Part shown: in pieces, positions 3,316 through 13,601 of the stretch
Position numbering within the stretch: the stretch's first letter is position 1
Layout: each line of letters starts with the position of its first letter
NCBI GenBank assembly: GCA_003388555.1
Contig: QQVD01000030.1
Coordinates: 62,001-126,000 of the forward strand
DNA from: Acidobacteriota bacterium
GTDB lineage: Bacteria; Acidobacteriota; Thermoanaerobaculia; Multivoradales; Multivoraceae
DNA length: 64,000 nt
Direction: 5' to 3'
Notes under the pieces: model-generated
The model's database searches: none
What the model was told of the DNA's origin: nothing
The model's input: the letters and a program-made list of their open reading frames with translations, nothing else
Translations under genes and position numbers: made by a program

Positions 3316-5091
3316 CTACTCCACCTTCTCCCCCGGCATCTCGCGGCCACCCTGGTGGATGGTCACCGTCGACACCGCACCGTCCTCGCGCCCGAAGGTG
3401 ACCTGGGCGTCGACGACTTCGAGGAAGAAGGCGTCGGTCGCCTCGGCGAACAGCTCCACTTCGGGCTGACCCGGCAGCTGCGAGAAGACCCGGTTGCCGT
3501 CGACCCGGATCGTCATCTCGAAACCGGGCTGCATCTTGTAGGTGCCGGCGTAGGCGGCCGCCTGCTCGGCGCTGATCTCGATCTTGGTGCGGGTCTGCAC
3601 CTCCTCGTCGGTGAGGTCGGCGCGCTCGGCCTCCTCGGCGCCGTCGGGATGGAAGAGCATGTGGCTCACCTCGCCGTCCTCGCCGAGCACGAAGTCGAGG
3701 TAGCTGAACGTGTTCTCGTAGAAGAAGCGCGTCTCGCTCTCGGGCAGGATCTCGAAGCGCTGGCCGCCGCTGCGCTGGGTGTGCAGCTTGCCGTCGGCGA
3801 AGGTCACCGTGCGGGTGTCGTCCTCGCCGATGCGGTAGACGCCGACGTAGCGGCGCAGCGTCTCCTCGGGCAGCTCGATCGCCTTGCGCTCGGGGAACGG
3901 ATCGCCGACCGCGATCGCCGCCAGCTGCTGCGCCACGCGCGACGGCGACTTGGCGTTGTCGGTGTTGTTGGCCAGCACCGCGACGTAGACGTCGTCCTGC
4001 GGCAGGTAGAGGGCGTAGGTGCGGAAGCCGTGGATGCCACCGCCGTGCTGGATCATCTCGCGACCGCGCAGCTCGCCGATGGCGAAGCCGTAGCCGTAGC
4101 CGACCTCCTCGCCGTCGTCGGTGGTGAACGAGGTCCACAGCGCCTTCGCCTGCTCCGGCTTCATCAGCTCGCCACCGTGCAGGGCGCGGTTCCAGCGCGC
4201 CAGATCGTCGACCGAGGACATCAGGCTGCCGGCGGCGTAGGGCTGCGTCATGCTGAGGAAGGGCGCGTTCCGCCACTCGTCGCCCTCCTTCTCGTAGCCC
4301 TCCACCCGGTCGTCCACGATCTGCTCGGGATCGTCGTAGTGGGTGTGCGCCATGCCGAGCGGCGTGAAGATGCGCTCCTGCAGGAACTCGGCGTAGCTCT
4401 TGCCGGTGACCTTCTCGATGATCGCGCCGAGCAGCACGTAGCCCGAGTTGTTGTAGAGATGACGCTCGCCCGGCGCGAAGTCGATCGGCTCGTCGTCGAA
4501 GACGTCGATCAGCTCGTCGACCGTCAGGTCGCGACGGATCTCCTGGTCCATGTAGCCCGGGATGCCGGTGTAGCTCTTGATGCCGGAGGTGTGGGCCAGA
4601 AGCTGCTCGACGGTGACCGGCTCGTCGGTCTGCGGGAAGTCGGGCAGGAACTTGGTGAGCGGATCGTCGAGCGAGAGCTGTCCCTCGAGCTCGAGCAGCC
4701 GGATCGCCACCCCGGTGAACTGCTTGGTGATCGAGCCGAGGCGGAAGATCATGTCGGGCTCGAGCGCCACCTCGTGCTCCATGTCGGCCATGCCGCGCGC
4801 GGCGCGGTAGACCACCTCGCCGCCGCGGGTGACGATCGCCGCCGCGCCCGGCTCGGCCGGGTCGTACGCCTTCTCCATCACCGCCGCGTAAGGCGCCGCG
4901 GCGGCTTCGTCGGCCGACGCCTTGGCGAAACCGGGTGCGCTCATTCCGCCGACCGTGAGCAGCAGTGCCGCGGTGAGGCACGTGGCGACGACTCTGCCGC
5001 CACGCTGCAGACCACGCCGCTGTTGAGGCCGTCGGGCTGAGTGCGACGGGCGGGCCTGCGGACGGTCGATCGATGGATGGCTCTGGTGCAT
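3316..5091 (-). CDS. secreted serine hydrolase, beta-lactamase class C / esterase family
   Basis: A 591-residue exported protein of the serine beta-lactamase-like family, which includes D-aminopeptidases, esterases and PBP4*-like proteins. A hydrophobic segment at about residues 34-50 follows a long basic N-terminus, consistent with a signal peptide. Catalytic motifs are visible: S120-I-T-K123 (SxxK) in RLGSITKQF, Y213-N-N215 (YxN), and HGGG in MIQHGGGIHGF as the KTG-like third motif. The C-terminal 200 residues hold repeated beta-rich segments typical of the extended members. The start at 5091 follows GAGGAA at a good spacing. It is divergent to the membrane-protein gene at 5257. Substrate is unknown; a true beta-lactamase role is unlikely given the HGGG motif and extra domain. 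Confidence 0.88.
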   Translation of the reverse strand: MHQSHPSIDRPQARPSHSARRPQQRRGLQRGGRVVATCLTAALLLTVGGMSAPGFAKASADEAAAAPYAAVMEKAYDPAEPGAAAIVTRGGEVVYRAARGMADMEHEVALEPDMIFRLGSITKQFTGVAIRLLELEGQLSLDDPLTKFLPDFPQTDEPVTVEQLLAHTSGIKSYTGIPGYMDQEIRRDLTVDELIDVFDDEPIDFAPGERHLYNNSGYVLLGAIIEKVTGKSYAEFLQERIFTPLGMAHTHYDDPEQIVDDRVEGYEKEGDEWRNAPFLSMTQPYAAGSLMSSVDDLARWNRALHGGELMKPEQAKALWTSFTTDDGEEVGYGYGFAIGELRGREMIQHGGGIHGFRTYALYLPQDDVYVAVLANNTDNAKSPSRVAQQLAAIAVGDPFPERKAIELPEETLRRYVGVYRIGEDDTRTVTFADGKLHTQRSGGQRFEILPESETRFFYENTFSYLDFVLGEDGEVSHMLFHPDGAEEAERADLTDEEVQTRTKIEISAEQAAAYAGTYKMQPGFEMTIRVDGNRVFSQLPGQPEVELFAEATDAFFLEVVDAQVTFGREDGAVSTVTIHQGGREMPGEKVE

Positions 5092-5259: not shown

Positions 5260-6785
5260 CGCCGACTGCTTCTGGCTCTCACGGTGGCCTCGATTCTGGC
5301 GCAGGCCGGGCTGCACGTCCTCTACGTGCAGACGGTGGCGTCGGGTTTCGGCTGCGATGCGGCGACGCTGCGCTGCCCGGATGAGGCCGGCGGCGCCGTG
5401 TCGCTGTGGGACGAGCCGGCCGCCGAGCTGCCGTGGGCCAACCGCGACACATCGACCTACGTGTGGCCTGCGAAGCGGGCGCGCGAGGGTGGCCTCGGCC
5501 TGCTGGCGAGCGACCTGCACCGACGCTCGCCTGGCCTGCCGCTGCTCCTGCTGGCGCTCGACGGGGCCGGGCTGGCGCCCGAGACCCTGGTGTGGCTGAG
5601 CGCCCTGGCCGCGGTGCTCGCCACTACCTTCGCCGCCGCCTTCTGCGGCCGCTGGTTCGGGCCGGCCGCGGCGCTCGCGGCGGCGCTGCTCGGCGCCGTG
5701 TGGTCGAGCTCCTACCGCATGGTGCCGATCCTGGGCCCCGACGCACTGCACGCCAGCCTGTTCACGATCGCCTGCTGCGCTCTGCTCTGGGCAGGTCTCT
5801 CGCGCCGCACCGCCTGGCTGGCCCTGGCGGTGGCGGCGCTGGTGGCGGCCCAGCTGCTGCGCCCTTCGCTCGCCTTCGCGGCGGCGCCGGTGGCGCTGGC
5901 CCTGGCGCCGCTGCTGCTGCGAAGGCGCCCCGAGGAGGCGTCGCAGGAGCCCGGCCGGAGCGGCCGCCGCGCCCCGGCTGCAGCGATCGCCGTCGCGCTG
6001 CTGGCGGCTCTCGTCGCCGTGCCGCTGACCCAGGCGTCGTTGAATCGATGGTTCCACGGCGAGCTCACTCTCTCCCAGATCGGCAAGACCACCCTCGCCT
6101 GCTACGCCGGGGCGCGGCTGCGGGTGGAGGTCGAGGGGGCCCGCTTCGCCGACGCGCGCCGCGAGTGCGACGAGAGGATGCGCGGCGACGCTGCCAGCCG
6201 CCAGGAGGAGTACGAGCGGGCGGTGCACGGATTTCGCGCCCGACCGGGGGCGACGGCGCGCTCCTTCGCCGCGGAGGCGCTGCGCCAGCTCGACTTCCCG
6301 CCCCGCCTCGAGTACGCCGAGGCGCAGGCCACAGCGCCCTGCCGCCGGCACTGGTGCACTGGTTCAGGGAGACCCGGCTGCTGCGCCTGCTCTGGCTGCT
6401 CGCCGCGCTCGGGGCCTGGCGGCTGGCGCGTCTGTCGACGAGGCCGCGCGGACAGCATGAAGAGCCCGAGGGGCGCCGTCGGCTGGCTGCGCTCGGCGGG
6501 CTCGGCGGCCTCGCCGCGGTGCTCGGCCTCTGCCTGATGCTGGCGCTGCTCAACTCCGTCTCCCACCTGGTCGGCTCGCGGTTGCGGCTGCCGATCGAGC
6601 AGCTGGCCCTGGTGTTCGCGGCGCTCGGGCTCACCTGGCCGTGGGCTCTGCGCCACCGCGTCGGCGGCTGGGCGCAGGCGCTGCCTTCCGTCGTGACGCG
6701 ACAGCTGGCACGGCAGCAGCCGCCGGGGGTACCGGTGCGGACGCGAGTGGCGTGGCGGGCGCTGCGCCCGTTCCGCCGCCGCTAA
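5257..6785 (+). pseudogene. frameshifted polytopic membrane protein, possibly GT39/ArnT-like
   Basis: About 508 residues if the frame is repaired. From TTG 5257 the frame encodes MRRLLLALTVASILAQAG, then a lumenal loop with GFGCDAATLRCPDE, then six or more alanine/leucine-rich membrane helices. Near 6330-6345 coding shifts by one base: upstream reads LEYAEAQATAP, downstream continues as LPPALVHWFRETRLLRLLWL in the frame ending at TAA 6785, with three further helices. Neither half is a plausible full protein alone. The spacing of helices, a GPDALHASLF segment and a large loop before the frameshift resemble GT39-type glycosyltransferases using lipid-linked sugars; this is a weak inference. A sequencing or assembly indel, a true mutation or programmed slippage are all possible; no obvious slippery heptamer was seen. 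Confidence 0.6.
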
Positions 6786-8438: not shown

Positions 8439-9530
8439 ATGAAGCTGTTCGAACAACTGAGTGCTCTCGGCGTTCGTGCTGCCGAGCAAGCCGGTCACCT
8501 GGCGACCGAAGAGGCGACGAAGAACGCGCTCGTGATGCCGTTCATCAATGCGCTCGGCTACAACGTCTTCAATCCCTTGGAGGTAGTGCCCGAGTTCACG
8601 GCCGACGTCGGCATCAAGAAGGGCGAGAAGGTCGACTACGCCATCGTCCGCGACGGTCGACCCGTCGTTCTCGTCGAGGCGAAGGCGAGCGGGACGGATC
8701 TGGATCGAGCGGTCATGTCGCAGCTCTTCCGATACTTCACGGTCACCGACGTCCGCATCGCGATCTGCACGAACGGGACGGTCTACCGCTTCTACTCCGA
8801 TCTGGAGCGACCGAACCGGATGGACGAGAAGCACTTCCTCGAGCTCGACCTCACAGATCTTCGCGCGGAAGTCGTTGACCGCTTGGCGCACATCACCAAG
8901 GACGCCTTCGACCAGGACCGCCTCCTCGAGACCGCTACGGAGCTGAAGTACCGCGGCCAGGCCAAGAGACTCCTCGAGGCGCAGCTCGAAGAGCCCTCCG
9001 ATGAGTTCATCCGTTTCGTCGCTGCCTCCGTGGTGGACGGACGGGTCACGAGGGCCGTTCGCGAGCAATTCGGCCGGATCGCCCGAGACGCCTTCCGTGA
9101 GCTCGTTCGCGACAGAGTCCAGAGCCGCCTTCGCGACGCTCTCGAGCGAGCGGCGAGGGACGAAGTAGCTCAACTCGCGGAGGAGAGCCTCGATACCGCA
9201 ACGGATGGCGCTGCCGATGACATCGAGACCACGGCCGACGAACTACAGGGCTTCTACATCGTCAAGGGCATCCTGCGTCGGGTCGTCGACTCGTCGCGCA
9301 TCGCGAGCAGAGACGTCCAGTCCTACTTCGGCATCCTGCTCGACGACAACAACCGGAAACCGCTTGCCCGGCTTCACTTCAACGGTCGACAGAAGTACCT
9401 CGGCCTCTTCGACAACGCAGACAAGTCCGAGGAGCGTCTCCCGATCCAGAGCCTCGACGACATCTACGACTACGCGGACCGGCTCACAGCCACAGTCGGG
9501 TTCTACGAGGGAACCGACGGAGGTGAGTAG
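8439..9530 (+). CDS. stand-alone HSDR_N-like restriction endonuclease domain protein
   Basis: A 363-residue soluble protein. Residues 20-120 match the N-terminal nuclease domain of type I restriction R subunits found as free-standing proteins: NALVMPFINALGYNVFNP, then GIKKGEKVDYAIVRDG and VVLVEAKASG. Asp66, Glu80 and Lys82 form the D...ExK signature, so the nuclease core looks intact. The middle is charged and helical, and the C-terminal 90 residues are of unknown function. There is no helicase or HsdM/HsdS partner nearby. AAGGAGG precedes the ATG closely. The stop overlaps the start region of the next gene (9523), suggesting coupling. A role in nucleic-acid defence is an inference from the family and the location beside the cassette array. 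Confidence 0.8.
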   Translation: MKLFEQLSALGVRAAEQAGHLATEEATKNALVMPFINALGYNVFNPLEVVPEFTADVGIKKGEKVDYAIVRDGRPVVLVEAKASGTDLDRAVMSQLFRYFTVTDVRIAICTNGTVYRFYSDLERPNRMDEKHFLELDLTDLRAEVVDRLAHITKDAFDQDRLLETATELKYRGQAKRLLEAQLEEPSDEFIRFVAASVVDGRVTRAVREQFGRIARDAFRELVRDRVQSRLRDALERAARDEVAQLAEESLDTATDGAADDIETTADELQGFYIVKGILRRVVDSSRIASRDVQSYFGILLDDNNRKPLARLHFNGRQKYLGLFDNADKSEERLPIQSLDDIYDYADRLTATVGFYEGTDGGE

Positions 9531-10144: not shown

Positions 10145-10271
10145 TGCCAACGTCTCAGAGATCAGGGCCCTGATGGCCAACGCGCTCGTGGATGGAAGTG
10201 ATGTCGTTCTGATGGGTGCCGGTTAGCAGCCGGAAGCGAGGGCAGCCTCCGCTGCATCTCTCTTGTTGGAT
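10145..10271 (-). other. attC-like site A (distal end of array)
   Basis: 127 bp. On the minus strand R'' is ATCCAAC (10271-10265), 19 bases after the stop of the gene at 10290. The distal core GTTGGCA is degenerate, which fits the end of the array. The outer arms share AGAGAT and CAG..GCTG blocks with sites B and C, but pairing of the inner arms is weaker. Confidence 0.6.
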
Positions 10272-11306: not shown

Positions 11307-11434
11307 ATCCAACGGATCAGAGATCAGCGGCGCTGTAGGCCGTCGCGCTCGTGAATGGGAGTGATGCTCGGCCCATGAGTGAAGGCTAGAAACCGCGAGC
11401 GCGGGCAGCGTCCGCTGCATTTCTATTGTTGTGC
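11307..11434 (-). other. attC-like site B
   Basis: 128 bp, the clearest site. The end cores are ATCCAAC (11307-11313) and GTTGTGC (11428-11434). The inner arms AGCGGCGCTG (11326-11335) and CAGCGTCCGCT (11406-11416) pair with one extra base on the right arm, like the extrahelical bases of attC. GCGCTCG (11345-11351) pairs with CGAGCGC (11396-11402). The terminal loop region is about 44 bases. Confidence 0.72.
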
Positions 11435-11456
11435 TGCCCAGAAGCCCCTGGGCTGA

Positions 11457-12014
11457 TCAGTCCTCGCAGTCACGAGCATCGGGCGACCTATCGACCGCCA
11501 TCTCCTCAAGAGGGAGCACCAAAGCACGGATCACGCCGTCGTCATTCATCTTGGAGATAAGAGCTTCCTTCCCATCCCACAGTGCCTCGCGCGCTTCACG
11601 AACTTCACGAAGACAGGCAACATAATCGGAGTCACTCATGTGCCACCAACCGTATTTCTTCAATATGCCGTGAACGACATGATTCCGGGCCACTCTAGCC
11701 CTCTCGAGTGCCACAGCAGTCTTCTGGTCCTTGCAGTACTTCTTGAAGGCGTTGGCGAGCCAACCGATCGTCTTGTCGGAGTGCGCGTCGATCGACAGAT
11801 CTCCATCAAGGCGCGCCGCCGCTTCAATCGCCGACAATAGACCACCAACCTGGAACTCGAACACCTGCGAGTCCGCGACGACTGCTCCGAGAAAGGCGAA
11901 CAGAGCGAGATCGTTGGGCCGAACATAGAGTCCGACCAGCTCTTCTCCGACCCGCACAACGAGAGGATCCTCGTGTCGGCTGTAGTCCGGACCGGTGATC
12001 TCAAGCGCAGTCAT
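11457..12014 (-). CDS. cassette gene: HEPN-domain protein (RNxxxH)
   Basis: A 185-residue mostly helical protein of unknown family. The segment ERARVARNHVVHGILKKYG contains R110-N111-H112-V-V-H115, the RNx3H signature of HEPN ribonucleases. It sits after a long helix (WLANAFKKYCKDQKTAVALE) as expected in the four-helix HEPN bundle. The ATG at 12014 was chosen over an upstream in-frame start because AGGAG precedes it by five bases. It follows the gene at 12135-13139 in the same direction with a 120-base gap lacking an attC, so both appear to belong to one cassette. A toxin or abortive-infection effector role is plausible; no obvious MNT or antitoxin partner is adjacent. Confidence 0.68.
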   Translation of the reverse strand: MTALEITGPDYSRHEDPLVVRVGEELVGLYVRPNDLALFAFLGAVVADSQVFEFQVGGLLSAIEAAARLDGDLSIDAHSDKTIGWLANAFKKYCKDQKTAVALERARVARNHVVHGILKKYGWWHMSDSDYVACLREVREAREALWDGKEALISKMNDDGVIRALVLPLEEMAVDRSPDARDCED

Positions 12015-12134
12015 CTGTACTCCTGTAATCGGGAGACGGCCCAGCCGCCTCACGGTCTGCGGATCGACCGCACGAGTGTGAAAGAGGAGGACCCGAGCGC
12101 TCTGGACAGCCGGATCCGATCGGGTGTGCTGCTC

Positions 12135-13139
12135 TCATTCAGGCACAGCCCCTGTCCCTCCTTCAGTGAAGCGCCGAACCCCTAGAGGCCTGAGTCTCCG
12201 ATCACGCCAGTCGACGACCACTACCTCTCTTTGAGCGGACCCATCGCGAGGTGTTCTTAAGTGGAGGTGCATCGCAGTCGCCTTCGCCCAATCTTCGCCA
12301 AGTTCGGGCAGCAATCCCTCGAGCTCCGACCTGCTATGGCCGAACTCGACCGCCGCCTTGGTCACCTCCCTACAGTAGAAGTACGTCGTCACCGCGATCT
12401 CGTTGAAGTCACGCACTCCAATCTGAACTCGATCTCCGGGCTTGAACCCCCTGCTCCTTATGCACCCATCGAACATATACAGACCCCCGCAGCCTACGTC
12501 TTCGGGTCGCTCAATAGGTTTCGGGCCTTCGGCACTACCGAACCGATCAATGTCGATGCCGGCCCATAAAGAAAGTAGCTGACCATCGGCACAGTCCATC
12601 TCAGCGCTCACGATTCCGCCCCGATGTGTCAAGCAGTTTCGCACCTGCTGGAAGCGGACCAGGACGTCATCAAGATTGGTTGCGACTGAGTAGCGTTTCC
12701 GAAGGCACTCCATCTTCCGCCTGAAACCCATCTTGTGACTTCTGGCCCAATACCTGTCCACTTCTTCGATGTGTGTTCCAGCCTCGTTGCTCGCTATGGC
12801 ATCGAGACCGAATTCTTCGATTCTTTCTAAGGCGTGGCAGAAGGACCCTGCCCAGTCGAGGTGAACGTGCACCCGTTCGATGAGTTCGCGGAAACCGTTC
12901 GCCAGTACCCAAGTCGTGAAGTCACCGAGTTCTTCGGCCGACGGCGCCTCCTCGTCCCACTGCGCCATCGTGAGTTCGAATGCTAAGTCTCTGAAGGAGA
13001 GAGGTCTGCCTGCTTCCGGGAGCTCGGCAGCGAGACCGATCCGAACACGCTTCAGGAGTTCAGAGATCTCCCGGGAGACCGTGTTCAGCCGTGCCGAGAC
13101 ATCGAGAGCGATTGCATGCTGACCCACCTCGCGATCCAT
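12135..13139 (-). CDS. cassette gene: larger HEPN-like protein
   Basis: A 334-residue soluble protein with no recognised family over its full length. Residues 150-178 (YSVATNLDDVLVRFQQVRNCLTHRGGIVS) carry R167-N168-C-L-T-H172, an RNx3H HEPN-type motif followed by Gly-Gly. The N-terminal 140 residues are helical. The C-terminal 120 residues look beta-rich with several hydrophobic strands (VQIGVRDFNEIAVTTYFY, REVVVVDW) and may be a sensing or partner-binding domain. AGAGG lies six bases before ATG 13139. It is the first gene of a two-gene cassette; the second gene, 11457-12014, is also HEPN-like. Two HEPN proteins in one cassette suggests a paired RNase complex, which is speculative. Confidence 0.65.
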   Translation of the reverse strand: MDREVGQHAIALDVSARLNTVSREISELLKRVRIGLAAELPEAGRPLSFRDLAFELTMAQWDEEAPSAEELGDFTTWVLANGFRELIERVHVHLDWAGSFCHALERIEEFGLDAIASNEAGTHIEEVDRYWARSHKMGFRRKMECLRKRYSVATNLDDVLVRFQQVRNCLTHRGGIVSAEMDCADGQLLSLWAGIDIDRFGSAEGPKPIERPEDVGCGGLYMFDGCIRSRGFKPGDRVQIGVRDFNEIAVTTYFYCREVTKAAVEFGHSRSELEGLLPELGEDWAKATAMHLHLRTPRDGSAQREVVVVDWRDRRLRPLGVRRFTEGGTGAVPE

Positions 13140-13158
13140 CTACCGCCTCTTCTCTGCA

Positions 13159-13284
13159 GCACAAGGGATCAAAGCTCAGCGGCGCTGCGGACGAGCGCGC
13201 TGGGCAGTGGGAATAACTTCGGGTTCATCACAATGGCTACCAGTCGCGAGCACGGGCAGCGCCCGCTGCAGCTTGTTGTTAGGC
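13159..13284 (-). other. attC-like site C
   Basis: 126 bp. The cores are GCACAAG (13159-13165, a one-base deviation from the RYYYAAC consensus) and GTTAGGC (13278-13284). The inner arms CAGCGGCGCTG and CAGCGCCCGCTG pair as in site B. The TAA stop of the upstream cassette gene is formed by the R'' core itself, as in many integron cassettes. Confidence 0.72.
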
Positions 13285-13594: not shown

Positions 13595-13601
13595 GCCTAA
13601 C
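13595..13601 (-). other. proximal cassette boundary core (GTTAGGC on minus strand)
   Basis: GCCTAAC on the + strand is the reverse complement of the core after the cassette's own gene (13278-13284), which marks the cassette start. The flanking sequence to the right does not fold like sites A-C, so this may be an attI relic, a decayed attC or a non-canonical insertion point. Confidence 0.55.

Follow-up and report, generated by a model that had tools for sequence, protein, structure and literature searches.

The two-gene cassette

The stretch of DNA analysed (64,000 nt, referred to as the window) contains a small array of integron cassettes between 10.1 and 13.6 kb. The central cassette of those listed in Table 1 carries two genes, coding for proteins of 334 aa (P0002) and 185 aa (P0001). 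The G+C content of the cassette region is ~57-59 % compared with 70 % for the window, as expected for acquired DNA. There are three attC-type repeats with spacings of 1163 and ~1851 bp and, when read along the minus strand, each cassette opens with an end that is complementary to the R'' end of its own attC: GTTAGGC at 13601 with GCCTAAC at 13284 for the cassette of the 102-aa gene, TTGTGCTGC near 13164 with GCAGCACAAC at 11437 for the two-gene cassette and GTTGGAT at 11313 with ATCCAAC at 10271 for the cassette of the 324-aa gene. There are no RYYYAAC or GTTRRRY boxes in the gap between the P0002 and P0001 genes. The pairing of the R' and R'' ends and the lack of attC boxes in the gap mean that the two genes form one cassette, which bears out what had been proposed from the sequence alone, and this is a genuine integron cassette. 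The gene of the next cassette (324 aa) gave no family match at E values up to 10.

Table 1. Positions in the window of the genes and attC sites of the cassette array
Feature	Position	Strand	Remarks
Next cassette's attC (324-aa gene)	10145..10271	-	R'' ATCCAAC pairs with GTTGGAT at 11313
Next cassette's gene, 324 aa	10290..11264	-	Without family match
Two-gene cassette's attC	11307..11437	-	R'' GCAGCACAAC complementary to the opening end; R' GTTGGAT
Two-gene cassette	11313..13164	-	~1852 bp; from repeat spacing (1852) and R'/R'' pairing
P0001, 185-aa ORFan	11457..12014	-	Second cassette gene; HEPN-like RN-x3-H at residues 110-115
Intergenic gap, 120 nt	12015..12134	-	AGGAG directly upstream of the P0001 ATG
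P0002, 334 aa, predicted HEPN-type	12135..13139	-	First cassette gene; RN-x3-H at residues 167-172
Preceding cassette's attC (102-aa gene)	13159..13284	-	R'-like end TTGTGC is the start of the two-gene cassette
Preceding cassette's gene, 102 aa	13279..13587	-	DUF1871 below threshold

The sequence GCAGCACA is present just past the stop codon of P0002 (12125-12132) and again in the R'' end of the downstream attC (11430-11437), the two copies flanking P0001. The duplication may have been left by the fusion of cassettes or by insertion of the second gene, or it may be a chance occurrence.

Coding evidence and motifs

Both ORFs give a clean translation on the minus strand, the ATG of P0001 is preceded by AGGAG, and the G+C content by codon position is non-uniform, as is seen in coding DNA. 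The HEPN ribonuclease signature that had been reported for each protein is present in both, as RNHVVH from residue 110 of P0001 and as RNCLTH from residue 167 of P0002. The looser pattern R-x4-6-H is found in 66 % (P0001) and 97 % (P0002) of sequence shuffles and is worthless on its own; most proteins of such composition should contain it by chance. The RN-x3-H form, however, is found in only 0.8 % (P0001) and 2.0 % (P0002) of shuffles. Neither protein has a meaningful match in Pfam, NCBIfam, PADLOC or PHROGs, and neither matches 3jrt or any of the HEPN structures by sequence at E values up to 1.

The P0002 family

No relatives were found by exact-peptide scans or with a two-row profile. A tblastn search gave a single relative, on a Mesorhizobium plasmid, and this led to a degenerate search pattern: further relatives were collected across genome contigs using a DNA pattern for RNC-x2-HR-x-G. 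The scan returned 100 stretches, about 60 of which encode P0002 relatives (phmmer, with E values as low as 1e-19 in a search of that small set), and many of the remainder are chance matches. The relatives are found in Cyanobacteria, Chloroflexota, Pseudomonadota, Planctomycetota and other groups. They are rare (one in 150 genomes in one sample and five in 347 in another) and mostly present as a single copy per genome.

The relatives align to P0002 from the N-terminus through approximately residue 270. The C-terminal part of P0002 had been described as an extra beta-rich region that could sense a phage product; most of it is in fact a segment common to the family, and what is peculiar to P0002 is limited to approximately its last 60 residues. 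The family is widespread but sparse and has no name. Its members are standalone proteins of ~270-330 aa, predicted to be HEPN-type ribonucleases, and the Pfam, NCBIfam and PADLOC libraries hold no model that covers them. On the Mesorhizobium plasmid pMspAR07d (L078:5869-6675) the P0002 relative stops early and the remaining C-terminal part lies in the following ORF; this is a broken or split copy.

Relationship of P0002 to HEPN proteins

Forty-six sequences of the family were aligned (A3). The residues R, N, C, H, R, G and V are invariant in this alignment, partly by construction since the search pattern required them; most of the relatives were selected by the motif and only three are free of this bias. 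These three (L201, L203 and L204), which were found by profile with the motif unused, keep RN-x3-H as RNCLEH, RNCLEH and RNALVH, respectively. L204 differs at the adjoining C and R yet has the same R, N and H. The Rx4-6H motif of HEPN proteins, in which N, D or H usually follows the arginine, is retained in these relatives. Outside the search pattern, the conserved columns are W77 (89 %), E/D85 (91 %) and D182 (98 %), and E/D85, which lies upstream of the motif, is a candidate for the conserved acidic residue that HEPN proteins have in an upstream helix (helix 2).

Several relatives also match HEPN models. L107 matches Pfam DUF4145 with an E value of 1.1e-4 over residues 83-166, motif included, and L070 matches it across the motif with an E value of 0.075; the best score of any relative was 22.7 bits, just under the cut-off of 23.1. 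Weak matches were seen to HEPN_Apea (L094), to HepT-like (L113) and, in five relatives, to the PADLOC model RTasHEPN (best E value 0.0034), the last spanning the motif region in the two relatives for which positions were seen. When A3 was compared by hhalign with a profile made from 28 DUF4145 domains gathered here, the score was 27.5, against a maximum of 15.4 over 99 column-shuffled templates, and the Rx4H motifs were in register. The P0002 family thus has profile similarity to a known HEPN family. A single-sequence structure model of P0002 had a mean pLDDT of 38 and gave no Foldseek fold match. The sequence evidence makes it very probable that P0002 belongs to the HEPN superfamily. The sequence-only reading had taken both proteins to be HEPN; this is well supported for P0002, whose family profile matches DUF4145 with the motif in register, and for P0001 it is plausible rather than proven.

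Is P0001 a HEPN protein?

No relatives of P0001 were found in plasmids, phages, viral contigs or 396 genomes of its phylum, and none were found in 39 genomes that carry P0002 relatives. A lone P0001-like match in those 39 genomes (E 0.086 over 39 residues) contains an internal stop and was rejected as not credible. There is no Pfam family match at E values up to 10. Compared with the DUF4145 profile, P0001 scored 18.9 with RNHVVH in register, a score equalled by 2 of 150 shuffles whether the motif was kept or not. In the single-sequence model, which is of low confidence (mean pLDDT 42), the chain is all-helical through the motif, and Foldseek gave no fold match. When P0001 was compared directly with the P0002 family only the motif aligned (P 0.09), which does not establish that the two are paralogous. 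The low frequency of the motif in shuffles together with the marginal profile match suggests that, on balance, P0001 may be a HEPN protein.

Genomic neighbours of P0002 relatives

The neighbours of P0002 relatives vary and include TIR, SIR2-like, KAP NTPase, NERD and PIN-TPR genes and three DUF2971 genes, with no fixed partner. Several of these types are often met in defence islands, and the association of the family with defence-type neighbours is anecdotal. One relative is directly followed by a TIR-domain gene (L050:6666-7601, plus strand). Another relative has, 56 bp downstream, a gene (L108:286-726, minus strand) for a 146-aa protein that contains RIRCNLFHG (R-x4-H) and has no Pfam match; it is an unrelated, possible HEPN neighbour. 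Among 5739 ORFs neighbouring P0002 relatives there is no P0001-like gene (best E 0.72).

Do P0001 and P0002 act together?

Our preferred reading, to which we give a probability of roughly 60 %, is of an ordinary integron cassette whose two genes encode a standalone HEPN RNase (P0002) and a second, probably HEPN-like protein (P0001). It had been proposed that one of the two senses and the other cleaves. This is not supported: the partner is not conserved with the P0002 relatives, and the full catalytic signature is intact in both proteins, so neither resembles a dead sensor. The shared cassette implies co-transfer and probably co-transcription of the two genes, not interaction of their products. 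HEPN active sites can be composite between two protomers, and a heteromeric pair might still be imagined in which P0002 senses or regulates and P0001 cleaves, or in which the active site is composite. The two genes, which have the same orientation and are not separated by an attC within their cassette, would move together and probably be transcribed together, both proteins have Rx4H with N after the R, and the distant relative at L108 offers a single case of a different small Rx4H protein close downstream. We regard such a pair as rather unlikely, however, because a P0001-like gene is absent near all P0002 relatives and from the 39 genomes searched, neither of the intact motifs is accompanied by any mark of a sensor role, the genes are 120 nt apart and the HEPN identity of P0001 is not firm. 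It is improbable that the two proteins, as divergent and catalytically intact HEPN proteins of one cassette, form a mixed active site that depends on the pair.

Two-gene toxin-antitoxin modules are common in integron arrays, and the P0001 and P0002 genes, adjacent and on the same strand, have the usual layout of such a module. HEPN proteins are also common as toxins (PMC3710099). One gene could encode a toxic HEPN RNase that the other neutralises by binding as a pseudo-partner. This too is unlikely, since the two proteins, at 334 and 185 aa, are large for members of a toxin-antitoxin pair, P0001 matches no known antitoxin and the pairing is not conserved; many P0002 relatives are solitary, which indicates that P0002 has no need of P0001. 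A possibility to be taken more seriously, though we do not favour it, is that P0001 is not a HEPN protein, its RN-x3-H having arisen by chance, and that the genes were joined through cassette fusion or insertion, an attC being lost in the process. The absence of P0001 relatives from all the collections searched and of any Pfam match, the marginal profile match and the repetition of GCAGCACA on either side of P0001 are all consistent with this. Against it, RN-x3-H is rare in P0001 shuffles, the motif lies in a predicted helix, albeit in a low-confidence model, and it is in register with the DUF4145 motif at a score that few shuffles reach, whether or not they keep the motif.

Comparison with known systems

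The arrangement had been thought new for a cassette-borne system. This was overstated: Anantharaman et al. (2013; PMC3710099) had already listed an 'Integron cassette HEPN' family, for which there is a solved structure (PDB 3jrt), so HEPN proteins on cassettes are not new. The same study proposes a role in stress or dormancy. The cassette described here likewise encodes a probable HEPN-type protein with Rx4-6H, but there is no sequence match between 3jrt and P0001 or P0002, and here two genes share the cassette. DUF4145 (PF13643, HEPN clan CL0291) matches P0002 relatives across the Rx4H helix, whereas P0002 itself is unmatched and its family adds an N-terminal part and a C-terminal beta/helix segment. 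The HEPN-MNT system (HepT/MntA) is similar in that it too is small, comprises two genes and includes a HEPN RNase. It differs in its MNT nucleotidyltransferase, a domain that is absent from both genes and from the flanking cassettes. The RTasHEPN protein of DRT systems (PADLOC PDLC03820) is weakly matched by the five P0002 relatives mentioned above, but the two-gene cassette has no reverse transcriptase. The analysis adds a scattered, unnamed family, one member of which is cassette-borne, to the pool of candidate HEPN RNase effectors. If P0001 is a true partner, the two proteins would make up a compact heteromeric HEPN system that is mobile as a single cassette.

Proposed mechanism

In the HEPN superfamily the Rx4H site is assembled in a dimer. 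P0002 would accordingly form a homodimer in which two Rx4H motifs make up a metal-independent RNA-cleaving site. Metal independence is suggested by likeness to the characterised HEPN RNases, which cleave RNA at the Rx4H site without metal (PMC3710099). P0002 is probably activated by stress or phage infection and would then cut cellular RNA and arrest growth, the outcome being dormancy or abortive infection under stress. The C-terminal part conserved in the family (the beta segment and the last helix) probably has a regulatory or structural role and is probably not a phage sensor peculiar to P0002. P0001 may act independently or may modulate P0002.

Integrase and other attC copies in the genome

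No integron integrase (IntI) was found in the assembly above the TIGR02249 cut-off. The best candidate reads as a XerC-like recombinase and scores far below the integron-integrase cut-off, and the array therefore appears to be without an integrase of its own. The possibility that the array adjoins an integrase was rejected, there being no IntI and the exact attC cores being confined to this window and to one other contig (C8) of the same genome. The gene that adjoins the array on the plus strand (8439-9530) encodes a solitary N-terminal domain of the type I restriction subunit HsdR (HSDR_N). On contig C8, the exact copies of the attC core lie near 4682-4698 and 5995-6011 of locus L206 and near 4112-4128 of locus L205. 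Uncharacterised ORFs of 181 and 229 aa are located beside them, suggesting that there are further integrase-less cassettes in the genome.
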